NCBI RefSeq assembly: GCF_020510525.1 | Contig: NZ_CP075188.1 | Span: forward strand, 1,612,001 to 1,676,000 | DNA length: 64,000 nt | Reading direction: 5' to 3' | DNA from: Quatrionicoccus australiensis | GTDB lineage: Bacteria > Pseudomonadota > Gammaproteobacteria > Burkholderiales > Rhodocyclaceae | Shown here: in pieces, positions 52,257-64,000 of the stretch | Layout: each line of letters starts with the position of its first letter | How positions within the stretch are numbered: position 1 is the first letter of the stretch | The notes under the pieces: model-generated | What the model saw: the letters and a program-made list of their open reading frames with translations, nothing else | Databases searched by the model: none | What the model was told of the DNA's origin: nothing | Program-made: the position numbers and the translations under genes

Positions 52257-52589
52257 ATGGATATCTATCGGATGACCAACGATGAGCTGGCCGCGCAACT
52301 GGCCGCCAGCCTCAAGGCCTGGCGCGTTTCGCCCAACGGTGCGGCGCTGACCCAGGCCGACCTGGCGCAGAAGAGCGGCATCGGCTTGACGCCGTTGAAG
52401 CGCTTCGAGAAAACCGGCGCCATCACGCTGCGTAACCTGATCGCCATCCTGCGCGCGCTGGATCTGCTCGACGGCTTGCAGAATCTCGTGCCCGACGCCG
52501 ACAGCCCGAGCCCGCTCGACGTGCTGGCTGCGGCGCAGAAAAAATCGGCGCGGGTCCGCCAGCGCGCGCCGCGTTCGCATAAGGCGTAA
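52257..52589 (+). CDS. HipB-like antitoxin, HTH DNA-binding protein
   Basis: A 110-residue protein with a Cro/CI-type helix-turn-helix (about residues 30-70; LTQADLAQKSGIGLTPLKRFEKTG). A basic tail (KKSARVRQRAPRSHKA) follows. It precedes a HipA-like kinase by two bases, the normal antitoxin-toxin order. It would repress its own promoter by binding the four upstream repeats. A second ATG at 52272 is a possible alternative start. Confidence 0.88.
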   Translation: MDIYRMTNDELAAQLAASLKAWRVSPNGAALTQADLAQKSGIGLTPLKRFEKTGAITLRNLIAILRALDLLDGLQNLVPDADSPSPLDVLAAAQKKSARVRQRAPRSHKA

Positions 52590-52591
52590 AC

Positions 52592-53866
52592 ATGGACGAT
52601 ATCCGCGCCGTTCAGGTCAATCTCTGGGGCCAGTTCGCCGGTGCCGTCGCGCCGCTGCGCAACAAGCCCGGCTATTACGAATTCAGCTACGCGCCGGAAT
52701 TTGCCAAGCGCGGGCTGGAGCTGTCGCCCATCCTGATGCCGCTCAAGGCGAAGCGGCGTTTCAGCTTTCCGGCCCTGGCCCGGGAAACCTTTCACGGCTT
52801 GCCCGGCCTGCTTGCCGATGCGCTGCCCGACAAGTTCGGCAATGCGCTGATCGACGAATACCTGGCCCGGCGCGGCATCCTGCCCGGCGACATCACGACT
52901 TTGCAACGCCTGCTTTACGTCGGGCGGCGCAGCATGGGCGCGCTTGAATTCGAGCCGGCCGAAAAGGCCTTGCGCGGCGCCGCGGCCAGCCTGCCGCTCG
53001 ACATGGCGCACCTGGTCGAGGATGCGCGGCGGGCGCTCAAGGGCGAGTTTTCCAGCATCGCCCAGGACATCATCGATATCGGCAGTTCGGCCGGCGGGGC
53101 GCGCGCCAAGGCAGTGATCGGCTGGAACCGCCAGACCAACCAGGTGGTGTCCGGACAATTCGACGTACCCGATGGCTTCGAGCACTGGTTGCTCAAGTTT
53201 GATGTCGGCGGCGACGGTGAACTCGGCACCACGGCCGGTTTCGGCCGCATCGAGTACGCGCACGCGCTGATGGCCGCGGCGGCCGGCATCGAGATGAGCG
53301 AATGCCGGCTGCTCGAAGAGGGCGGCCGGGCGCATTTCATGACCAAACGTTTCGACCGCGACGGCAATGCCAAGCTGCACGCCCAGTCGCTGTGCGGCCT
53401 GCTGCACCTCGATTTCAACATGCCCTACGTGCATGGCTACGAGCAATACCTGCGCAGCGTGCTCGGCCTGCGCCTCGGCGCCGATGCGCTGGAACAGGCC
53501 TGGGCGCGCTGCGCCTTCAATGTCGCCATCGTCAATTGCGACGACCACACCAAGAATTTCGGTTTCCTGATGGACAGTACCGGTCAGTGGCGTCTCGCCC
53601 CGGCCTACGACACCTGCTTCGCGCACAATCCGGGCGCCGGCAAATGGACACGCCAGCACCAGATGCAGGTCGGCGGCAAGACCTGGGACATCGGCGTCGA
53701 CGATCTGCTGGCGCTTGCCAAGACCTACGACATCCGCCGCGCCCGCGACCGCCTGCAGCAAATCCGCGCAGCCGTCGCCCGCTGGCCGGAGTTCGCCGCA
53801 ACGGCTGGCGTGGCCGAGGCGGAAGTCCGCAAGATCGCGGCCTTGCAGCCGGCCTGGGCGAAGTAG
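52592..53866 (+). CDS. HipA-like serine/threonine kinase toxin
   Basis: A 424-residue protein of the HipA family. It has the N-terminal subdomain (about 1-105; YEFSYAPEFAKRGLELSP and FHGLPGLLADALPDKFGN), then a Gly-rich segment SSAGGARAKAVIGW, the LKFD strand, and the catalytic loop NCDDHTKNFGFLMD (about residues 315-328), which matches the family's H-x-K-N core. E. coli HipA phosphorylates glutamyl-tRNA synthetase and causes persistence; the target here is unknown. All key residues appear intact. Confidence 0.92.
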   Translation: MDDIRAVQVNLWGQFAGAVAPLRNKPGYYEFSYAPEFAKRGLELSPILMPLKAKRRFSFPALARETFHGLPGLLADALPDKFGNALIDEYLARRGILPGDITTLQRLLYVGRRSMGALEFEPAEKALRGAAASLPLDMAHLVEDARRALKGEFSSIAQDIIDIGSSAGGARAKAVIGWNRQTNQVVSGQFDVPDGFEHWLLKFDVGGDGELGTTAGFGRIEYAHALMAAAAGIEMSECRLLEEGGRAHFMTKRFDRDGNAKLHAQSLCGLLHLDFNMPYVHGYEQYLRSVLGLRLGADALEQAWARCAFNVAIVNCDDHTKNFGFLMDSTGQWRLAPAYDTCFAHNPGAGKWTRQHQMQVGGKTWDIGVDDLLALAKTYDIRRARDRLQQIRAAVARWPEFAATAGVAEAEVRKIAALQPAWAK

Positions 53867-53909: not shown

Positions 53910-54833
53910 CTACTTGTTACGCTGCGCCAGCAGGCGCCCATTGCTCGCTACGAAATGGATGGGCGCGATTTGTTGCAGGGCGCGTGGCGCGGTGGCCTCG
54001 TCGCTGATCAGGAAAACGCCGCTGATGCGGATTTCCCCCAAACGAGGGTCATCAAGCACGATGGGCTGTTTACGGAAACGGTTCAATTCGGTGATGACCT
54101 CGGCCAGCGGCGCGGCATCGAAGGCGAGCTGTCCCTTGGTCCAGTTCAGTGCGCTGCGGCGTTCGATGTTGTGTACCGGACCGATCTTTCCGTTTTCGAC
54201 AACCGCGGCTTCCCCGGCGTTCAGGCGTAGTGGCGGCTGCGCCTCGGCCGCGGGGAGAATGTCGACAATGCCTTCGGCTACCGTGACGCGGGTGTGTCGG
54301 GTGTCGGTCAGGACGGCGAAGCGGGTCCCGATGTCGCGGATGGTATTGCCGCCTGCCGTGATTGCGAAGGGCCGCTGGCGGTCGACTGCGACGTTGACGG
54401 CAATTTCGCCGGCCAGCAGATCGATGTGGCGTTGCTTGTCATCGATGCTGATGCGCAGACGGCTTTGGGGGGCAATATCGAGTTCGCTGCCGTCGTCTAG
54501 TTGCACGTGCCGGACTTCGCCGGCTTCGGTCGACACCTGTCCGTCCAACCAGTGCAGGCCGAGCCAGCCACAAACGAGGATGACGCAGCCCAGGGCCAGG
54601 CCACGGCGCAACGCTTGCCGTGCCGGCGGGGCTTGCCGCTGCAGGTGAGCCGAGTCGTCCCAGATTTGTTCGAGGATCTTGAACTCCCGGGCATGTGCCG
54701 GGTTGGCGGCGAGCCATCTGGCGAAGGCGGCCCGTTGTTGTCCGGAAACCGATTCGCCGCGCAGGCGGGCAAACCAGACTGCGGCTTCTTCCTGGATTTG
54801 TTGCTCTTGAGAGGGGGGCGCGGACGGCGGCAT
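53910..54833 (-). CDS. FecR-family anti-sigma / sigma regulator
   Basis: A protein of about 307 residues. The cytoplasmic DUF4880-like N-terminus (AAVWFARLRGESVSGQQRAAFARWLAANPAHAREF, cited for family only in part) is followed by one membrane span (ALGCVILVCGWLGLHWL) and a periplasmic FecR domain (EVRHVQLDDGSELDIAP; VTVAEGIVDILP), ending in an STN-like tail. It relays an outer-membrane receptor signal to the ECF sigma factor encoded just upstream. ATG 54833 is chosen; a TTG at 54869 that overlaps the sigma stop codon is the alternative. It sits in the FecI-FecR unit divergent from the receptor. Confidence 0.9.
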   Translation of the reverse strand: MPPSAPPSQEQQIQEEAAVWFARLRGESVSGQQRAAFARWLAANPAHAREFKILEQIWDDSAHLQRQAPPARQALRRGLALGCVILVCGWLGLHWLDGQVSTEAGEVRHVQLDDGSELDIAPQSRLRISIDDKQRHIDLLAGEIAVNVAVDRQRPFAITAGGNTIRDIGTRFAVLTDTRHTRVTVAEGIVDILPAAEAQPPLRLNAGEAAVVENGKIGPVHNIERRSALNWTKGQLAFDAAPLAEVITELNRFRKQPIVLDDPRLGEIRISGVFLISDEATAPRALQQIAPIHFVASNGRLLAQRNK

Positions 54834-54865
54834 GCGCCGGATTTTCGGGAGGGCCGGGCGGGCTG

Positions 54866-55405
54866 TCAATTGCAGACCAACTGGCCGGCCCGGAGTCGGC
54901 GCAAGTGGAGCATGGCGTTGGCCAGATGCTTTTCCACGGTTTTAGCCGAAATGGCTAGCTGCTCGGCAATCTGGTTTTGGGTCAGGGCGTCGAAGCGATG
55001 CAGGAAAAAGACCTGGCGGCATTTGGCCGGCAGCGACTGGATGTCGTTGGCCAGGGCAAACAGTTGTTGGCGCGCCGCTGCGATGCGTGCCGGATCGGCG
55101 ATCGGGTCGGGCAGGCTGTCCTGGAAATCGTCGATGGGAACGAGGATCGGCCTGGTCCGGCTGGCGCGCAGCAGGTCGATGACGAGATTTTTGCCGGCAT
55201 GGAGCAGGAAAGCCCGGGGGTTGTAAATGGCTTCTTCGGGCGGCTTGACCAGCAAGCGCAAGAAAACGTCCTGGGCGGCATCCCGTCCTGCTTCCGGACA
55301 ATCGAGCCGACGGCTGAGATATTGGCGCAATTCGTCGAAGTGATCGCGATACAGCTGCGTCAGGCAAATCTGGTTATTCAGGCTGGAAGCGAGGGAGGAG
55401 GGCAT
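54866..55405 (-). CDS. FecI-like ECF sigma factor
   Basis: A 179-residue sigma-70 family ECF factor. Region 2 is about residues 15-80 (LYRDHFDELRQYLSRRL; AAQDVFLRLL; NPRAFLLHAGKNLVIDLLR) and region 4 about 120-170 (CRQVFFLHRFDALTQNQIAEQL). It starts with ATG 55405; TTG 55411 is an alternative. FecI-type factors are released by FecR when a TonB receptor with an STN domain binds its ligand, then transcribe that receptor's operon. The receptor gene is divergent, 157 bases away. Confidence 0.92.
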   Translation of the reverse strand: MPSSLASSLNNQICLTQLYRDHFDELRQYLSRRLDCPEAGRDAAQDVFLRLLVKPPEEAIYNPRAFLLHAGKNLVIDLLRASRTRPILVPIDDFQDSLPDPIADPARIAAARQQLFALANDIQSLPAKCRQVFFLHRFDALTQNQIAEQLAISAKTVEKHLANAMLHLRRLRAGQLVCN

Positions 55406-55562
55406 GGGCAAATGCTAATGGCCGAGGCCGCCATCTCCAATGCGGCATGTTGCCGCAGGCGCCTGTTTTTCGGGGGAGAGAGGTAGGGAAAGGTCCGGCG
55501 ATTTCGTCTTGGAAGGTAGAGGCACATTTCGTTGCCGTTTTGCCATAACCAGGGGGAAATAC

Positions 55563-57827
55563 GTGTTGCAAAGCAAATCGAGGGCGCGCCCGGCGGCGTT
55601 GCGGAAACTACTGATCACCACAATGATCCTGGCTTGCCATAGCGTTGCAGTTTTTGCCGCTCCGGATGTCACGGTCGATATCGCGGCTCAGCCACTCTCT
55701 TCCGCGCTGCGTGACCTGGCCAGCCAGGCCGGAGTGCAATTGGTATTTGCGGCCGAGACGGTGGGGGCTGCCAAGGCACGCGCAATCAAAGGTGAAATGA
55801 GCGTCGATGCCGCTCTCCGCAAGTTGCTGCTCGGCAGCGGGCTGGATTTTCGCAAGGACGGTGAGCGCAGTTACGTGGTGGTGAAGTCAGCCGAGATCGA
55901 ACATGGCCTGGCTGAAGTTGTGGTGACGGCAACGCGGACGGAGCGGCGGGTTGACGATGTGCCGGCCAGTGTCAGCGTCATCACTGCCAAGGATATTGCC
56001 AGCCAGAGGCCCACGGTTATCAGCGACCTGCTGCGCAATATCGAAGGTGTCGACGTCAGCAACACGGCGTCGTTAGCCGGAAGCGAGTCGGTTATGTTGC
56101 GCGGCATAGGCGGGTCGTACGGTGGCTCGACCAGCCAGGTTTTGCTCGATGGCATGCCGTTGGAGTCGCCGATTACCGGCATTCACTACGGTATGAAAAC
56201 ACTCGCCGTCCAGGATGTTGAGCGCATTGAGGTCGTTCGAGGGCCGGCTTCGGCACTTTACGGTCCGAGTGCCGTCGGTGGCGTGGTCAACCTGATGTCC
56301 AGGCGATGGCAGGGCACGCCGGGAGCGGAAGTGCAGATCGGCGGTGGAAGTCATGGCTCGACCCTGGTCGGAGGTGCAGTCGGCGGGGCGTGGGATGTGG
56401 CCGATTTCAGGTTGTCGGTCAGTGATTACCGCACAGATGGTTACGTCGCGCAGCCGGAGCCGGATCGTTGGGGAACCAGGGATTTGGGCGCGCGCGATGG
56501 CCAGGATAAAAAAATCGCTCTGACCGGCGGTTTGCGGCCATCCGAGAATCAGGAAATCACCTTTGGCATCCGCAGTTCGGATATCGAATCAGCCTGGTTG
56601 GGTGGCCATCCCAACTACCGTATCCATGCGCGGCTGGAAAGCTACGACCTGGGCTACCGTGCCGAGATCGGTGACTGGGCGGTAGTCAAGGCTCGCTATC
56701 GCAAGTTGCAGCAAAAGGCGCGGGTGTTTTTTGATGCCGATGCGTATATGGCGAATGGGGACCTGTCCCTGGCCGAATTTGATAATCGAACCGATAGCAG
56801 CGATTCCATCGATTTGCAGGCAGATCTTCGTCTTGCCCGGAACAATGTACTTTCCCTTGGCTATAGCTACGGTCTGGGAAAATACACAACTACGGCCGAC
56901 TATACCGGCGCCTTTCTTGGCTTTCCGGCCGAGCAGAGCTCATCGAAGAGCGAGTTGACCGGGTTATTCATCCAGGACGAACACCGGTTTACGGAAGCCT
57001 TGTCGGTTTTGCTCGGCGGGCGCTGGGATCATTACCGGTTTTTCGGCGATAGCCGCGATGGAGTCGCAACGGGCAAGAATTCGAGCGACGATGTGTTCAA
57101 CCCGCGCGTCGGGGCACGCTACCGCCTGACCGAGGCCGCTTCGGTGTATGCCACCGCAGGCACGGCTTACGTCCCGGCGCTCAACTCGCTGAAATTCCGC
57201 AGCGGCGGCGTTTGGCTCGATAACGCCGGGTTGAAACCAGAAACCTCGGTGACCTACGAGGTGGGCGCCAATTACCGTGAAGGCCCCCTGGCCACCCGGG
57301 CGGCGATTTATCACACCGATTACACCGACAAAATTGAAGTCATCACGGTGGGGGTGCAGAGGCAGTTCAGCAACGTCAGCAAAGTCGCGGTCAATGGCCT
57401 GGAATTGGCCATGGAAGCGAAATTGGCCAGCGGCTGGCATCCCTACGTGAACTACACCTATACCGATTCCAAGATCAAACAAAATCCGGGTGATCTTCTG
57501 ACGGAAGGCAAACGGCTGCAACGGGTTGCCCCGCACAAGCTCAATGTGGGCGTTACCTATGCGCCTTCCGATAGCTGGTATGGCCGCATTTCCGGTCGCC
57601 ATGTGGCGGCCTACTATTTCAACGACCAGAACACGGCGGATGCCCGCAATCCAGGCCATTTTGTTGCCGATATGAAGTTCGGCGTGAATCTGCCGGCCGG
57701 CGGGTTTGCCCGCAAGCTTGAGTTGTCGCTGGCGATCAACAATCTGTTCGATAAACGCTATGGCGAGCAGCAATACGAATACCTGGATGGTCGGAATGTT
57801 TGGCTCGGTCTGAGTGCGAAGTTCTGA
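55563..57827 (+). CDS. TonB-dependent receptor with N-terminal STN signalling domain
   Basis: A 754-residue outer-membrane receptor. GTG 55563 is chosen: it has AGGGGGAAA six bases upstream and opens at the signal peptide (about 1-33, ending VFA-A). The STN domain (about residues 35-105; VTVDIAAQPLSSALRDLAS) is the part that signals to FecR. Then come a TonB box (EVVVTAT), a plug (VSVITAKDI; RIEVVRGPASALYG; AVGGVVNLM) and a 22-strand-type barrel ending NVWLGLSAKF. It imports a ligand and triggers the FecIR pair. The Cys-rich peptide gene follows by 58 bases, so the ligand may be the mature peptide or its metal complex. Confidence 0.93.
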   Translation: MLQSKSRARPAALRKLLITTMILACHSVAVFAAPDVTVDIAAQPLSSALRDLASQAGVQLVFAAETVGAAKARAIKGEMSVDAALRKLLLGSGLDFRKDGERSYVVVKSAEIEHGLAEVVVTATRTERRVDDVPASVSVITAKDIASQRPTVISDLLRNIEGVDVSNTASLAGSESVMLRGIGGSYGGSTSQVLLDGMPLESPITGIHYGMKTLAVQDVERIEVVRGPASALYGPSAVGGVVNLMSRRWQGTPGAEVQIGGGSHGSTLVGGAVGGAWDVADFRLSVSDYRTDGYVAQPEPDRWGTRDLGARDGQDKKIALTGGLRPSENQEITFGIRSSDIESAWLGGHPNYRIHARLESYDLGYRAEIGDWAVVKARYRKLQQKARVFFDADAYMANGDLSLAEFDNRTDSSDSIDLQADLRLARNNVLSLGYSYGLGKYTTTADYTGAFLGFPAEQSSSKSELTGLFIQDEHRFTEALSVLLGGRWDHYRFFGDSRDGVATGKNSSDDVFNPRVGARYRLTEAASVYATAGTAYVPALNSLKFRSGGVWLDNAGLKPETSVTYEVGANYREGPLATRAAIYHTDYTDKIEVITVGVQRQFSNVSKVAVNGLELAMEAKLASGWHPYVNYTYTDSKIKQNPGDLLTEGKRLQRVAPHKLNVGVTYAPSDSWYGRISGRHVAAYYFNDQNTADARNPGHFVADMKFGVNLPAGGFARKLELSLAINNLFDKRYGEQQYEYLDGRNVWLGLSAKF

Positions 57828-57885
57828 TTGGGTGCTGTCATCACCGTTTTGCTCGGCCACGTGCAATCTACTCAAGGAGATTGAT

Positions 57886-58011
57886 ATGGAAATCAAAGAA
57901 ATCGATTTTGAAACGCTGGAAGGCTGCAACGAAGCATTTGAAGCATTGACCGCCTGTGCCTGCTGCGGCACTCAGGGCGGCATGATGTGCCATTGCGGAG
58001 CGCGCCGGTAA
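57886..58011 (+). CDS. Cys-rich 41-residue peptide, candidate RiPP precursor
   Basis: A small gene with a strong ribosome site (CAAGGAG) before ATG 57886. The N-terminal half is acidic and helical in pattern (IKEIDFETLEGCNEAFEALT). The C-terminal half is Cys- and Gly-rich (ACACCGTQGGMMCHCGARR). Cysteines are at residues 14, 24, 26, 27, 35 and 37. It lies directly before three radical SAM/SPASM genes and an ABC exporter, the normal place of a precursor peptide. The acidic part would be the leader and the tail the core; the cleavage site is unknown, although a Gly-Gly pair occurs at 31-32. It is too short for standard homology search. A longer in-frame start at 57814 has no ribosome site. Confidence 0.8.
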   Translation: MEIKEIDFETLEGCNEAFEALTACACCGTQGGMMCHCGARR

Positions 58012-58046
58012 TCCGGCTCGCCTTTTTCTAATCCATCAATGAAATC

Positions 58047-58068
58047 GCCCGTGGCCGGGCTCCTTTTT
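58047..58068 (+). terminator. Hairpin with T tract between the peptide gene and its maturases
   Basis: Stem GCCCG / CGGGC with a four-base loop, followed by TCCTTTTTT. It lies 36 bases after the peptide stop and would act as a partial terminator, leaving more transcript for the peptide than for the enzymes. Confidence 0.6.
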
Positions 58069-58078
58069 TGGAAGAATC

Positions 58079-59515
58079 ATGCTGGACAAAACAAATTTTC
58101 ATGCGTTCCGGAAAGACGATCGTCATTTCCTGTTTCTGACCGTGCCGGTGGCCTTGTTCTCCATCGATGCGGAAAGCTACGGCGTGCTGCGCAAGGTGGA
58201 AGAGGATCAAACACTGGAGGCTAACGGCGAAACGGCACGCTGGGAGGACTTGAACCGGTTTGCCGAACGTTATATGGAACGTGCCAAACCCGCCCAGCCG
58301 GTACGCTCACCGGCGGACATTACCGACAAGGTAGTGGCGACCTATCTTTTCGTCAGCCAGGAGTGCAACCTCAAGTGTGCCTACTGCTACGGCAGCGAAG
58401 GAGAATACGGCAAGCGTGGCCGCATGAGCGAGACGGTGATGAATCAGGCCTTCGAGCGGTTTTTCTCGGCGGGTGAGGGGCAGCATTACGTGACCTTCTT
58501 TGGCGGCGAACCGCTGATGAATTTTCCGTTGATGGAAAAGACTGCGGAGCTGGCGCAAACCTATCGAGAGGATGGCAAGGCCGACATCCGGTTGTGCATC
58601 GTCACCAACGGCACCTTGTATAGCCCGAAAATCGATGCTTTCTTCCGGGAACACATCAGCGATGTCACCTTCAGCCTGGATGGACCGAAGGCATTGAACG
58701 ACGCCCAACGGGTGGCGAAGTCGGGCGACAGCGTCCATGACCAGGCAGCGGAAAACATCCGCCAATTGACGAAGGATGCGCCATTCGGTTGGTCCTTCCG
58801 CGCCATCGTCACCCGTGCTGGCTGCGAACAGGTCGAAGACATCTACCAGCACATGGAAACTTTCAAGCCCGGTGGGATCGGCATTGTGGATGTGGATGTG
58901 CCCAAGGACAGCCCCTTGTATATCGACGACGCCCGTTATAGGCGTTTCCTGGAGCAAATCGTTGCGGTCAACCGGCGCGGCCTGGCCAGTATTCTGGAGG
59001 GAGACGCCCCGGTGGCCTTTGAATATCCCTTCTACATTCTTTATTACTTCGTTTCCCGCCGCCATGCCCTTTACCACTGCAATGCCGGCACCAACCTGCT
59101 GGCGGTGACGGCGGAGGGCGACGTTTATCCCTGCCACCGTTTCGTCGGCATGGAGGATTTCAAGATGGGCAATGTTGCTGATCCTGAGTTGAAATCCAGC
59201 GAACGTTATCAGGGTATCCGCCAACAGTTCATCGATGCCACCGTGGACAATCGCGAGGGGTGCCGTGATTGCTGGGCACGCTACCTGTGCGGCGGTTCCT
59301 GCGCCAAGTATGCCTTTGCCGAGCATGGCAGCATCGCACCGCCAGTGGCGCGTCATTGCCAATACATCAAAACCATCATCGAGGAATTATTGCCCGATCT
59401 GGTGGCGGTCATGGAAGAACCGGCACAGCGTCGCAAATTGATCGGTCGCCTGGGCGAGGCGGTACGTGGTGGTGCGGCGGATAGCCGGGCGCTGGGCGAA
59501 GTGCATGGCGCCTGA
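58079..59515 (+). CDS. Radical SAM/SPASM peptide maturase 1
   Basis: A 478-residue enzyme. The first 90 residues resemble a peptide-recognition or PqqD-like region (FLTVPVALFSIDAESYGVLR). The radical SAM cluster motif is C96-N-L-K-C100-A-Y-C103. The SAM region GGEPLMN and a C-terminal SPASM domain follow, with cysteines near 334, 352, 395, 398, 404, 408 and 427 (CRDCWARYLCGGSC). SPASM maturases use auxiliary 4Fe-4S clusters to form thioether or carbon cross-links in peptides. It directly follows the Cys-rich peptide gene, which is its likely substrate. The end overlaps the next maturase by 11 bases. Confidence 0.93.
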   Translation: MLDKTNFHAFRKDDRHFLFLTVPVALFSIDAESYGVLRKVEEDQTLEANGETARWEDLNRFAERYMERAKPAQPVRSPADITDKVVATYLFVSQECNLKCAYCYGSEGEYGKRGRMSETVMNQAFERFFSAGEGQHYVTFFGGEPLMNFPLMEKTAELAQTYREDGKADIRLCIVTNGTLYSPKIDAFFREHISDVTFSLDGPKALNDAQRVAKSGDSVHDQAAENIRQLTKDAPFGWSFRAIVTRAGCEQVEDIYQHMETFKPGGIGIVDVDVPKDSPLYIDDARYRRFLEQIVAVNRRGLASILEGDAPVAFEYPFYILYYFVSRRHALYHCNAGTNLLAVTAEGDVYPCHRFVGMEDFKMGNVADPELKSSERYQGIRQQFIDATVDNREGCRDCWARYLCGGSCAKYAFAEHGSIAPPVARHCQYIKTIIEELLPDLVAVMEEPAQRRKLIGRLGEAVRGGAADSRALGEVHGA

Positions 59516-60869
59516 TTGTCATGTCATCGCCGAGGCTGGCATCGTCTATTTCCCGGAGAGCGGCAAGTTCTATGCGGTGCCGCAAGGTATCGGCGAGCGC
59601 CTGAAATCCTGGCTGGCCGGGGATGGCGAGGCGCCGCCGGAGGCGGCTGCCATGCTCGCGGCGGAGGCGGGCAGGGGGCAAGCCGATCTGCCGCCCGTTG
59701 GAGGTGATGAAGGCGAGGTGCGCAGCCTGTGTTTGTACACCGCCCACGATTGCAATCTGGCTTGTACGTATTGCTACAACCAGCGCGGGCGGGCGGTGGC
59801 GCCGTTGGCCATGATGTCTTTCGCCACCGCCAAGGCGGCGATTGACCGCTTCTTCTGGCGACCGGGCGTGCCCTATGCCATTGCGCTGTATGGCGGTGAA
59901 CCCTTGCTCAATGTCGGCCTGATCGAACCCCTGGTCGACTACGCCGAACGTTTGCGGCGGGAACGGGATATTCGCATCGATTTCAGCCTGACCACCAACG
60001 GCACGGTCATGAATCGGGAGATCCTGGCCTTGCTGGATCGTCATTTCGTAGCGGTGACGGTGAGTCTGGACGGCATCAAGGCGGTCAATGACCGGCATCG
60101 CCATGCCGAAAAGGGCGAACACAGCGTTCACGACCGGGCGGTGGCGACGATTCGTTTGCTCAAGGAAAACACCGGCTTGCGGGTCACGGTCAAGGGAACG
60201 CTGACCGCCCAGGGGGTGCCCCATTACCGGGAATCCCTCGCCTACCTGCGCAGCCTGGGAGCCGACAATGCCGCCCTCACCCCGGCCTTCGGGCCGGCAG
60301 AGGCCGATTGGGCGCTGGCCGGCGAGGTGTTCGAGCGTTACGTGGCGATGCAGGCCGGGAACGCTGCGGCGGACCTGGCCGACCTCGACGAAGCCGCCGA
60401 ACCATGGCACGAATACACCTTCCAGATCGTCGCCGGCCTGCTGACCAAGCGGCGCCTGCTGCGTCACTGCAATATCGGGCGCGACCTGGCGGTGATGGCC
60501 GACGGGTCTATCTATGCCTGCCACGGCCTGGCCGGCCAGTCGGCCTTCGCCATGGGGCGGGTGGACGATCCGGCCAGCCCGGATTTCCAGCGTCTGCATG
60601 AAGATTTCGCCGGCCTCGATCTGCGTTCGGTCGACGGCTGCCAGCGGTGCTGGGCGCGTTATCTGTGCGGTGGCGGTTGTTACGCCAATGCCTGGTTCCA
60701 GAGCGGTTCCGTTCGCCAGCCGGATCGCGGCCATTGCGCCGTTTTCAAGGCGGTGGCGGAGAAGGTTCTGGTCGCTTTCGTCGACACCATGGGTCGGCCC
60801 GCGCAGGCGCAAGGGCTGCTGCGCAAGGTGCGCGGCATGATCGGCGCACCGCCGCCTTCCCATGTCTGA
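59505..60869 (+). CDS. Radical SAM/SPASM peptide maturase 2
   Basis: A 454-residue protein. The radical SAM motif is C83-N-L-A-C87-T-Y-C90, and GGEPLLN follows. The SPASM-type Cys cluster reads CQRCWARYLCGGGC near the C-terminus, similar to maturase 1. About 75 residues precede the SAM core (VYFPESGKFYAVPQGIGERL), again resembling a leader-binding region. I start at ATG 59505, within the end of maturase 1; an in-frame codon at 59466 would overlap more. It overlaps maturase 3 by eight bases. It probably acts on the same peptide or its intermediate. Confidence 0.92.
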   Translation: MAPDCHVIAEAGIVYFPESGKFYAVPQGIGERLKSWLAGDGEAPPEAAAMLAAEAGRGQADLPPVGGDEGEVRSLCLYTAHDCNLACTYCYNQRGRAVAPLAMMSFATAKAAIDRFFWRPGVPYAIALYGGEPLLNVGLIEPLVDYAERLRRERDIRIDFSLTTNGTVMNREILALLDRHFVAVTVSLDGIKAVNDRHRHAEKGEHSVHDRAVATIRLLKENTGLRVTVKGTLTAQGVPHYRESLAYLRSLGADNAALTPAFGPAEADWALAGEVFERYVAMQAGNAAADLADLDEAAEPWHEYTFQIVAGLLTKRRLLRHCNIGRDLAVMADGSIYACHGLAGQSAFAMGRVDDPASPDFQRLHEDFAGLDLRSVDGCQRCWARYLCGGGCYANAWFQSGSVRQPDRGHCAVFKAVAEKVLVAFVDTMGRPAQAQGLLRKVRGMIGAPPPSHV

Positions 60870-61980
60870 AGTGTTGCGCAATCTCTACCTGGTGGTGGCC
60901 CAGGAGTGCAATCTGGCCTGCACCTATTGCTACGCTGCCGGGGGCGGCTTCGGCCAGCCGGAACGCCATATGCCGGAGGCCATCATGCGCCGTGGCCTGG
61001 CGCGCCTGTTGCCCTTGGCCGGCGAACGGCTGACCCTGTCCTTCTTCGGCGGCGAGCCGCTGCTCAATTTCACCTTACTGCAGGAAACCGTTCGCTACGC
61101 CAGTTGTCTCGCGGCCGAAAGCGGGCGCGGGCTGTCCTTTGCCCTGACCACCAACGGCACCCTGCTCGATGAGGCGATGCTCGATTTCATCGAAAGGCAC
61201 ATCGCTTACCTGGCGATCAGTCTCGATGGCGATGCCGTGGCGAACAGCGGGCGGGTGTTCCGCGATGGCCGGCCGGCATTCCCGGTTATTCTGGACAATC
61301 TCGAACGGCTTCGGCAACGGCGCATCCCGTTTGCTCTGCGGGCGACGGTGACGCCGGCCAATGTCGGTCAGGTGGCGGAAACGGTCGCTTTTCTGTCCGC
61401 GCTCGGTGCCCAGTCGGTGCGCGTGTTGCCGGCCCAGGGTGTGATCTGGTCGGCAACCGAGCAGCAGCAATTGCGTCACGCCATGGCCGACCTCAACCGG
61501 CGCGGCTTGCAGGCGCTGCTGGCCGGCGAAACGCCGACGGCTTGCGAGCATGCCCTGCGTCTGGCCGTCCACACGGTGGCTAGTGAAGATGCGGAGCGTC
61601 CGTGCCTGGCAGGTGGCGGCATCCTGGCCCTGGCTGCCGACGGCATGCTCTACCCTTGCGAACATTTCGTCGGAGTCGATGAATTGGCCATGGGCCACGT
61701 CGATGACTATCCCGATACGCACGCTCGCCACATCGCAGCCCGCTTCGCGGCGGCGACCACGGCGGGGCGACCGCGTTGCCAGGCGTGTGCGGTGCGGGGC
61801 GCCTGCGGCGGGCAATGCTATGCCGAAGCCTACCTGGCGAACGGCAATATCGAGCTGCCGGCGGCGGATTACTGCGGGCGAATACACGCCACTTTCCGGG
61901 CGCTGGCGCCGGATTTGGCGCAAGGCATGGCCGATGTCGAGCAGGCCGGTCGTCTGCGCCGGGCCATCGGGGTGGAGTAG
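60862..61980 (+). CDS. Radical SAM/SPASM peptide maturase 3
   Basis: A 372-residue protein that starts almost directly at the radical SAM motif C16-N-L-A-C20-T-Y-C23, so it lacks the N-terminal extension seen in the other two. GGEPLLN and a SPASM-type C-terminus (CQACAVRGACGGQC) follow. Without its own recognition region it may rely on maturase 1 or 2 for the peptide, or act on a partly modified form. The ATG at 60862 overlaps the upstream stop by eight bases. Confidence 0.91.
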   Translation: MSEVLRNLYLVVAQECNLACTYCYAAGGGFGQPERHMPEAIMRRGLARLLPLAGERLTLSFFGGEPLLNFTLLQETVRYASCLAAESGRGLSFALTTNGTLLDEAMLDFIERHIAYLAISLDGDAVANSGRVFRDGRPAFPVILDNLERLRQRRIPFALRATVTPANVGQVAETVAFLSALGAQSVRVLPAQGVIWSATEQQQLRHAMADLNRRGLQALLAGETPTACEHALRLAVHTVASEDAERPCLAGGGILALAADGMLYPCEHFVGVDELAMGHVDDYPDTHARHIAARFAAATTAGRPRCQACAVRGACGGQCYAEAYLANGNIELPAADYCGRIHATFRALAPDLAQGMADVEQAGRLRRAIGVE

Positions 61981-61982
61981 GA

Positions 61983-62720
61983 ATGTCACCCGCTATCGTT
62001 GTCGACAATCTGGGGGTCGTCTATCCCAATGGGCAGCGCGCGCTCGACGGTTTGTCGTTGCAAGTGCAATCGGGCGAAGTGTTTGGTTTGCTTGGCGCCA
62101 ACGGCGCCGGCAAGACCACGCTTATCAAGGTACTGGCCAGCCTGATGCGGCCGAGCAGGGGGACGGTGCGCGTGCTGGGGCTGGATCCTGGCGAGCAGCC
62201 GGAAACGATCAAACGTCAGTTGGGCGTGGTACCCCAGGAGAACAACCTCGACGTGGATCTGGATGTGCGCGCCAACCTGGTTTTTCACTGCCGTTATTTC
62301 GGCCTGCGCCGGGCCGATATCACGACGCGGGTCGCTCATTGGCTGGCGCAACTCGGCCTCACCGACAAGGCTGCTGCGGAAATCATGCACCTCTCGGGCG
62401 GTACCAAGCGCAAGGTGATGCTGGCCAAGGCATTTCTCACCTCGCCCCGGCTGCTGGTCCTGGATGAGCCGACCAGCGGTCTCGACCCGGAAATCCGGGC
62501 GAGCATCTGGCGGCATATCCGCGACTTTCGCGACGGCGGGGGCACGGTTTTCCTGTCCACCCATCACATGGAAGAGGCCGAGCGCCTGTGCGACCGGGTG
62601 GCGTTGCTGCGCCAGGGCAGAATTGTCGCCTGCGATACGCCGACGGCGTTGGTGACCGGGCTGGGTGGTGGCCTGGAAGCCTTGTTTGAGGAAGCGGCAA
62701 GCACGGAGGATGGGCGATGA
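61983..62720 (+). CDS. ABC-2 type exporter, ATP-binding subunit
   Basis: A 245-residue ATPase. Walker A is GANGAGKTT (residues 38-46), the signature is LSGGTKRKVML, Walker B is LLVLDEPTSGLDPE, and the H-loop is STHHMEEAE. It is of the DrrA/NodI class that pairs with an ABC-2 permease, encoded next with an ATGA overlap. No C39 peptidase domain is fused, so leader removal must be done elsewhere. Start at ATG 61983, two bases after the maturase stop. It likely powers export of the modified peptide. Confidence 0.93.
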   Translation: MSPAIVVDNLGVVYPNGQRALDGLSLQVQSGEVFGLLGANGAGKTTLIKVLASLMRPSRGTVRVLGLDPGEQPETIKRQLGVVPQENNLDVDLDVRANLVFHCRYFGLRRADITTRVAHWLAQLGLTDKAAAEIMHLSGGTKRKVMLAKAFLTSPRLLVLDEPTSGLDPEIRASIWRHIRDFRDGGGTVFLSTHHMEEAERLCDRVALLRQGRIVACDTPTALVTGLGGGLEALFEEAASTEDGR

Positions 62721-63478
62721 ATTTTGTCTGGGCCATGCTGGCCCGCAATTTCGCCGTCGAGTGCCGCTCGTTGCGGGTCAGCTTCACGCGCATGGTGCTG
62801 CAACCGGCGATCTATCTCTTCGTATTCGGCTATGTCGTGGGGCGCATGCTGCCGGCAGGAAATTCCGGCAACTATGCAGCGGTAATGGCACCGGGGGTGG
62901 TGGCGATTTCGCTGATGAGCGCGCCGTATCTGGTGGTCGGCAGTTCCATCCTGTCCGGCTTTTACTTCCGGACCATGGAAGCCTGGCTGCTCTCGCCGGT
63001 TGGCGTGCGCGCCCTGTTGCTGGCCCTGCTCGCCAGCGGCACGCTCTACGGCATGGCCAGCGCCGCCGTGGTGGTCGGCCTGATCTGGATCATCCTCGGC
63101 ATCGTCCCGGAAAACTGGCTGCTGATCGCCTATTTCTGCTTTTTCGGCTCGCTGCTATTTTCGTTGCTGGCGGTGGTGGTGTTGCTGGCACCGGCCACGC
63201 CAAAACAGGGGCAGGACATTTTTTCCCTGCTGATGATGCCGATGACTTTTTTCGGCTGTACCTTCTACTCCTTCGCCATGCTGATTCCGCCTTTCGACAG
63301 CGTGGCGCTGCTCTTGCCGACCACCTATCTCAGCGAGGGGCTGCGGGCGGCCTATGCGACCGGTGGTGGCAGTCTGCCGACCCACTGGGTGGTGGCGGGA
63401 CTGGCGGCGACCACCCTGCTTCTCGTGCCGCTGGCCGACTGGGTGGTGGCGCGCCGCCTGCGGAATTTCACCTGGTGA
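62717..63478 (+). CDS. ABC-2 type exporter, permease subunit
   Basis: A 253-residue inner-membrane protein with about six helices. It has the ABC-2 family pattern (RMVLQPAIYLFVFGYVVGR near the N-terminus; LLMMPMTFFGCTFYSFAML and LLPTTYLSEGLRAAY towards the C-terminus). It partners the ATPase encoded just upstream (ATGA overlap, 62717-62720). The stop codon shares a base with the start of the next TonB receptor gene, so exporter and receptor belong to one operon. Confidence 0.92.
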   Translation: MNFVWAMLARNFAVECRSLRVSFTRMVLQPAIYLFVFGYVVGRMLPAGNSGNYAAVMAPGVVAISLMSAPYLVVGSSILSGFYFRTMEAWLLSPVGVRALLLALLASGTLYGMASAAVVVGLIWIILGIVPENWLLIAYFCFFGSLLFSLLAVVVLLAPATPKQGQDIFSLLMMPMTFFGCTFYSFAMLIPPFDSVALLLPTTYLSEGLRAAYATGGGSLPTHWVVAGLAATTLLLVPLADWVVARRLRNFTW

Positions 63479-64000
63479 TGCGGCGGGGCTGGTGCTTGGT
63501 CTTCCTGCTGGCGAGCTTGCCGGCGAGTGTGCTGGCGCAGGGCGAAAACACGGCCGAAACCGACGTCTCGGTTATCACCGCCGCCGACATCGCCCGCGAA
63601 AAGCCGGCCAGTCTGCTGGAGATGCTGAAGCGGCGGGTCGGGCTGGACGAGAACAACAGCGTCATCAGCATGCGCGGGGTGCGCGGGATTGCCGTGGTGG
63701 TCGATGGCTTCGTTTCTTCGGTCAGCGAGTTGTCGGCCTTGCGCCCGGAGCAGGTGGAGCGCATCGAAGTGTTGCGCGGGGCGGCGTCGGCGCGTTTCGG
63801 GGCTGAGGCGATGGGCGGGGCGATTGCGGTGACGACGCGGCGTGCCGGTGGTCGGCAGAATCCTGCGGTCAACCTGACGCAGGGGCTGGATTCTCGTGGC
63901 GGCAGCTATACCCGAGTGGGTGGCAGCGGCGAGCGCGCCGAACTGGCCTGGGCCTTGCTGGCGGAAAGCCGCGAGGACAAGGGCTTCCGCACCGTGCCGC
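63478..64000 (+). CDS. Second TonB-dependent receptor (partial, runs off the window)
   Basis: An open frame of at least 174 codons from ATG 63478 to the window end, without stop. A signal peptide (about residues 1-21, ending VLA-Q) leads directly into a plug domain: DVSVITAADIAREKPASLLE, then SVISMRGVRGIAVVVDGFVS, VERIEVLRGAASARFGAEAMGG and AIAVTTRRAGG. There is no STN domain, unlike the first receptor, so it would transport without signalling to FecR. It is the last visible gene of the peptide cluster. The start overlaps the permease stop by one base. Confidence 0.92.
   Translation, partial: MRRGWCLVFLLASLPASVLAQGENTAETDVSVITAADIAREKPASLLEMLKRRVGLDENNSVISMRGVRGIAVVVDGFVSSVSELSALRPEQVERIEVLRGAASARFGAEAMGGAIAVTTRRAGGRQNPAVNLTQGLDSRGGSYTRVGGSGERAELAWALLAESREDKGFRTVP

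Follow-up and report, generated by a model that had tools for sequence, protein, structure and literature searches.

The window analysed here is a 64,000-nucleotide stretch of the Quatrionicoccus australiensis genome (G000:C1:1612001-1676000; the genome is a single contig of 4.17 Mb). Its final part opens a module of linked genes for a short Cys-rich peptide, three enzymes predicted to modify it, a putative exporter, two TonB-dependent receptors, a FecI/FecR pair and, past the window end, a heme protein. With a probability of about one half, this module is a loop that would make, export, recapture and sense its own metal-binding peptide. This is the most likely of the four readings considered; a built-in subunit of a heme protein comes next, followed by a secreted signal and then by an antibiotic. 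The evidence comes from the recurrence of the gene set, the conservation of the peptide core, the separate clades of the three enzymes and the company that the heme protein keeps.

A recurrent gene module

An earlier, sequence-only reading of this DNA had named a FecR, a FecI, a receptor with an STN signalling domain, a Cys-rich peptide, three radical S-adenosylmethionine (SAM) enzymes, an ABC-2 type ATP-binding cassette (ABC) exporter and a second receptor, and all of these genes are indeed present. Absent from that account were the gene for a Vgb-fold heme protein, which lies past the end of the window, and a stem flanking the peptide gene.

The module recurs, with its genes linked, across the seven loci that were judged, namely that of Q. 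australiensis (L002) and L090, L091, L092, L096, L097 and L103; L093 of genome G208, a 3.5 kb fragment holding maturases only, was excluded from the counts. In tblastn searches FecI, FecR, receptor 1, the peptide, maturases 1 to 3, the ABC ATPase, the permease and the Vgb-heme protein were found in all seven, the Q. australiensis locus included, and receptor 2 in six, being missing in L096. Since the peptide has 12 database relatives with a kept core and six further loci carry the gene set, the locus is not a product of chance. The flanks outside the module, read from translations, mostly differ between loci, the exceptions being an exonuclease-III-like gene in L090 and L103 (one family) and a similar small open reading frame (ORF) in L091 and L103. 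The earlier claim that these genes form one system has thus far held: maturases standing mostly without the peptide or the receptors were sought and not found, all seven judged loci being linked, with the linkage of maturase 1 judged on these loci and the context of many other database relatives outside view.

Maturase 1 was found in 3 of the 369 genomes sampled from the class, 3 of 300 from the order and 3 of 150 from the family, and follow-up samples contained it in 2/2, 2/22, 1/4 and 1/2 genomes; the genome at the centre of each search is part of its count. Eight genomes carry it, that of Q. australiensis together with G084, G208, G402, G428, G685, G692 and G1166. A reduced form is seen in L003, from Candidatus Schekmanbacteria, which holds a receptor, a Cys/Gly-rich peptide, a single maturase (35% identical to maturase 1), a Vgb-heme protein with CNTNCH, an ABC-2 pair and a second receptor. 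This simpler set suggests a core unit of peptide, maturase, transporter, receptors and heme protein, to which FecIR and the extra maturases would have been added. Three small ORFs 5' of the L003 receptor (L003:6126-7350), two of them Cys-rich, match no Pfam family over cut-off.

The peptide and its maturases

The precursor gene (57886..58011, plus strand) encodes 41 residues with the core CACCGTQGGMMCHCGARR and stands 5' of maturase 1 in all seven loci. The core CCGxxGGxxCxCG is kept in its 12 relatives from the database (E between 1.2e-17 and 2.6e-10), and together with the seven locus copies they give 19 rows, those of L090 and L103 being identical, in every one of which this core is retained. 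The precursors are about 41 residues long and their leader mostly resembles EIxxIxFExLEGCNEAF; the Cys of the leader and the Cys preceding CC are not invariant.

Three enzyme genes follow on the plus strand: maturase 1 (58079..59515), with an RRE-like N-terminal domain; maturase 2 (59505..60869; PF04055), whose start was set from homologues; and maturase 3 (60862..61980; PF04055), which is without the N-terminal domain. That all three would be SPASM enzymes, as first proposed, stands at the level of motifs, since each has the radical SAM CxxxCxxC and the complete seven-Cys SPASM pattern in 7/7 loci; it does not stand at the level of the Pfam SPASM cut-off of 21.5 bits, which only maturase 1 passes (33.3 bits, against 13.9 for maturase 3 and no match listed for maturase 2). 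In a tree, maturases 1, 2 and 3 form three clades with one member of each per locus. Identity to the Q. australiensis enzymes in the other six loci is 60-64% for maturase 1 and 38-46% for maturases 2 and 3.

The maturases are closest in kind to CteB, PapB and QhpD, and the arrangement of RRE, radical SAM and SPASM fold seen in CteB is found here. Within the 25 families listed per enzyme, no maturase reached the cut-off of any class of ribosomally synthesized and post-translationally modified peptide (RiPP). Specifically, maturases 1, 2 and 3 scored 210.9, 176 and 217.7 for PapB (cut-off 340), 189.6, 201.3 and 167.9 for SCIFF (425), 107.4, 71.0 and 99.7 bits for CbpA/CbpB (TIGR04163; 375 bits), and 180.8, 164.5 and 163.1 bits for QhpD (453 bits). 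A scan of genome contigs gave at least 80 distant SPASM loci, the best 35% identical among those listed; only L003 entered the locus comparison from these, and in another, L026, the tblastn matches are to radical SAM only. In the plasmid collection all 21 matches lie below 60% identity; of the 20 listed, 12 carry the annotation of the quinohemoprotein maturase PeaB.

The Vgb-fold heme protein

The gene next after receptor 2 (~65388-66758; L002:12388-13758) was read, as was the remainder of receptor 2, in L002, which spans 20 kb of the Q. australiensis genome. Its product combines a Vgb-fold propeller with a C-terminal heme c domain and is predicted to be periplasmic. By tblastn it is present in all seven loci, and it occurs in exactly the same genomes as maturase 1 in the family (3/150) and order (3/300) samples. 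Compared with virginiamycin B lyase (Vgb) itself, a signal-peptide-like start and the heme c domain have been added, and none of 28 heme-protein rows has a His at P0133 positions 299-302, the site of Vgb His270, in a register set by hand. Directly 3' of this gene in the Q. australiensis genome lies a P-type cation ATPase (L002:13775-16600), for which no match was reported in the other loci searched by tblastn and which was left out of the module.

The heme protein is also the starting point for the alternative that ranks second, though we consider it unlikely. Here the peptide would be a built-in subunit or cofactor of a periplasmic Vgb-heme protein, like the cross-linked gamma subunit of quinohemoprotein amine dehydrogenase; export would serve assembly and the receptors would import substrate. 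The maturases and the heme gene are equally conserved, QhpD is among the closest maturase families, and the heme domain scores weakly, below threshold, against the alpha heme domain of the quinohemoprotein (15.9 bits of 274; 16.2 of 25.2). In quinohemoprotein amine dehydrogenase, a Trp supplies the quinone cofactor in the modified peptide; no Trp is present in the Q. australiensis peptide or in any of the 19 cores.

Receptors, sensing and export

Receptor 1 (55563..57827, plus strand) consists of an STN domain (PF07660; E 2.8e-9), a plug (PF07715) and a barrel (PF00593), and its start is most plausibly GTG 55563, judging from L097. On the opposite strand it adjoins genes for a FecI-type extracytoplasmic function (ECF) sigma factor (54866..55411, minus; PF04542 and PF08281, sigma-70 regions 2 and 4) and a FecR-type anti-sigma/sensor protein (53910..54869, minus; PF04773 at E 5e-20, and DUF4880), both with homologues in six other loci, so that the STN receptor beside FecI and FecR reproduces a FecIRA-type arrangement. 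Receptor 2 (63478..64000 in the window, continuing to ~65391; plus strand; PF07715 and PF00593, no STN match; 6/7 loci) has sequence matches to receptors of solved structure for siderophores, colicin I and heme. In L097, additional TonB-receptor matches lie directly past fecR (L097:4-3980), and in Q. australiensis a helix-turn-helix gene followed by a HipA-like gene, both read from translations, lies on the far side of fecR (52257-53866).

Upstream of receptor 1, a predicted promoter element (55481..55510, plus strand) consists of AGGTAGGGAAAG, 12 bases and CGTCTT. The form CGTC[GT]T stands 5' of receptor 1 in 7/7 loci, where the spacing and the block upstream of it are also alike, and eight matches occur in the 1857 bases of these regions, for which a rough estimate from equal base frequencies expects about one; the element is compatible with an ECF promoter that the linked FecI would serve. 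Another FecI-like candidate, the motif GGAAAT-N17-TC, was rejected as chance because it stands 5' of receptor 1 in only the Q. australiensis locus and L090, of six loci, whereas the CGTCTT element is present in 7/7; the motif was not found in a literature search. Between fecI and receptor 1 lies a palindrome (TGCGGCA-N3-TGCCGCA, 55441..55457), a candidate operator, possibly of some regulator, which is perfect in Q. australiensis and L097, has one middle base changed in L096 and does not occur in the other four loci.

The same arrangement could suit a secreted signal, a pheromone that receptor 1 and FecIR sense as a measure of population density, with no metal involved. The linkage of receptor 1 (whose alignments span the STN region) and FecIR to the peptide in 7/7 loci speaks for it, as does the reported role of SCIFF ranthipeptides in quorum sensing (a title cited in PMC8326336). 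However, a second receptor in 6/7 loci and a heme protein would be superfluous for a signal, and the four invariant Cys suit a ligand set, which leaves this explanation less likely still than the subunit.

Export is assigned to the ABC-2 pair, of which the ATPase (61983..62720, plus strand; PF00005, E 4.5e-33) scores highest against DrrA, and the permease (62717..63478, plus strand; PF01061, E 4.4e-12) scores second highest against DrrB, far under the cut-off. These drug-exporter families, together with the fact that Vgb inactivates a peptide antibiotic, might suggest an antibiotic that either uses the TonB receptors of rivals for entry or deprives them of metal, the producer's receptors serving uptake or immunity, but no dedicated immunity gene is seen in the module, the core is nearly invariant, and Vgb-like cleavage is set aside as unlikely because the His270 position holds no His in that hand-set register, so that this is the least probable of the four readings.

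A stem enclosing the peptide gene

Two short arms, one in the gap between receptor 1 and the peptide (57851..57864, plus strand) and one between the peptide and maturase 1 (58047..58060, plus strand), are reverse complements of each other in 7/7 loci despite differing in sequence. The arm match beats the best of 60 shuffles in each of the seven loci. In the seven-row alignment, which amounts to about six independent rows as L090 and L103 are near-copies, 95.6% of cells pair and changes on both sides are seen at 6 of 13 pairs; the covariation score was reached by none of 500 shuffles, and slid partners pair to only 30-53%. RNAalifold recovers the helix unprompted, and it is present in the minimum-energy fold of every row.

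By itself, the downstream arm can also form a terminator-like hairpin followed by a T-run. Specifically, a T-run lies 3' of it in Q. australiensis, L090, L103 and L091, and the local hairpin reaches about -9 to -11 kcal/mol in Q. australiensis, L092, L096 and L097; it is weak in L090 and L103 (-4.3) and L091 (0), where only the long-range pairing is strong. A second terminator-like hairpin is found at the peptide stop codon (58004-58017) in the Q. australiensis genome. The only Rfam match near the peptide is a sub-threshold one to a long non-coding RNA (E 0.19).

A model of the loop and the points against it

In the loop favoured here, three radical SAM/SPASM enzymes would act on one CC...CxC peptide, modifying its Cys/Gly core by thioether or thiooxazole-type chemistry. 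Thioethers are formed from Cys peptides by radical SAM enzymes related to QhpD, and a thiooxazole by the radical SAM-SPASM enzyme SbtM, as described in part of PMC11002830; given these precedents, a metal ligand made from Cys is plausible. A protease encoded outside the cluster would then cleave the leader, and the ABC-2 transporter would export the peptide, which would subsequently bind metal. The loaded peptide would be recaptured by the TonB-dependent receptors, with receptor 2 as a second import route, and on binding receptor 1 it would signal through the STN domain via FecR to FecI, switching on its own operon. In the periplasm, the Vgb-heme protein may dock the peptide after its recapture and free the metal by reducing it. 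The stem may favour precursor over maturase, whether through termination, processing or protection. Metal binding by the peptide, its export, recapture and sensing, and the reductive release of the metal are steps that we infer. Our guess for the metal is copper, because the conserved Cys suit Cu(I). The fullest version of this proposal is a new class of ribosomal metallophore that is built wholly by radical SAM enzymes acting one after another, recaptured and sensed through FecI/FecR, stripped of its metal by a new kind of periplasmic reductase, in which a Vgb propeller is joined to a cytochrome c, and kept in a set peptide-to-enzyme ratio by an RNA stem; we advance it tentatively, as more doubtful than the loop itself.

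Several observations weigh against the loop. The module shows no metal site, metal regulator or metal enzyme, no Fur-box search having been made, and the receptors could serve a signal or another ligand. The outward direction of the ABC-2 pair is deduced from family membership only. Distribution is patchy, with maturase 1 in 1 of 398 phylum genomes (Q. australiensis only) and in none of the three same-genus genomes of the family sample, and the module is therefore not essential. The part of L003 that was examined has no FecI, FecR or STN match, so sensing is not universal. The Vgb-heme protein and maturase 1 each have at least 120 relatives, and of the 120 listed, 115 and only 58, respectively, are at least 50% identical to the Q. 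australiensis protein; the heme protein may hence also exist elsewhere. Apart from the loop, some signs for the stem are weaker: the count of further pair types was reached by 36 of 500 shuffles, the RNAalifold covariation term is small (-0.16), the entire Q. australiensis segment exceeds its shuffles only slightly in stability (z -1.74, with 10 of 200 doing as well), and its arm motif is not rare in the GC-rich window (17 matches with at most one mismatch, 9 expected); pairing of the arms as DNA repeats rather than RNA is a further option.

Relation to known systems

The closest parallel to the proposed loop is group I methanobactin (MbnA, MbnB/C, MbnT, MbnM, MbnI/MbnR, MbnP/H), with which it shares a small precursor, FecI/FecR, an N-extended TonB receptor, an exporter and a heme protein (PMC3621798, in part), as well as Cys in the precursor (PMC8788703, in part). 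FecI/FecR with an N-extended receptor, which accompany the RiPP in four group I methanobactin operons (PMC3621798), have homologues in 7/7 loci here. In contrast, the present cluster has three radical SAM/SPASM enzymes and no MbnB-type enzyme (PF05114), an ABC-2 exporter in place of MATE, a Vgb-fold heme protein in place of a di-heme peroxidase, and usually two receptors. The only PF05114 match in the genome, G000:C1:1976710-1977501, lies about 300 kb away, and a product based on this sole multinuclear non-heme iron-dependent oxidative enzyme (MNIO) gene was rejected on account of that distance. Because their defining enzyme is absent from the cluster, the module is not placed among the methanobactins; by analogy, it likely works as the group I systems do, probably with other chemistry.

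Ranthipeptide/SCIFF systems (CteB, PapB) and QhpD differ in that all three maturases here fall under the PapB, SCIFF and QhpD cut-offs; further differences are that three enzymes here serve one peptide, TonB receptors and FecIR stand in the locus, and no Asp/Glu follows the first Cys of CC in the core. The ItfA-F locus of Bacteroides thetaiotaomicron, as part of PMC11002830 describes it, likewise joins a radical SAM enzyme, a precursor and a TonB-dependent transporter in one RiPP locus (ItfD/ItfF), but has a YcaO and a C39 exporter, and neither FecIR nor a Cys core nor a heme protein is named in that part. As in FecIRA surface signalling, an ECF sigma factor, FecR and an STN receptor stand side by side with an ECF-like element 5' of the receptor; here, however, they are linked not only to uptake genes but to a peptide that the module itself encodes and to the maturases of that peptide.

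The earlier suggestion that no RiPP locus of this make-up is known therefore needs narrowing: no maturase reached a RiPP-class cut-off among the families shown, but RiPP loci with FecIR or TonB receptors do exist (PMC3621798, PMC11002830). No such system appeared by title or abstract start in the open-licence literature, most subscription papers lying outside this scope. We file the module as a kind of self-sensed RiPP metallophore built without the defining enzyme of methanobactin. If this is true, the methanobactin strategy of a ribosomal metal carrier with surface sensing would have been reached with quite different enzymes. With three linked SPASM enzymes for a single short substrate that hardly varies, the module would offer a tidy case for learning how one peptide is shared among several radical enzymes. 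The fusion of Vgb and heme domains suggests an unrecognised route of metal release, and the covarying stem a way to balance precursor against enzymes.

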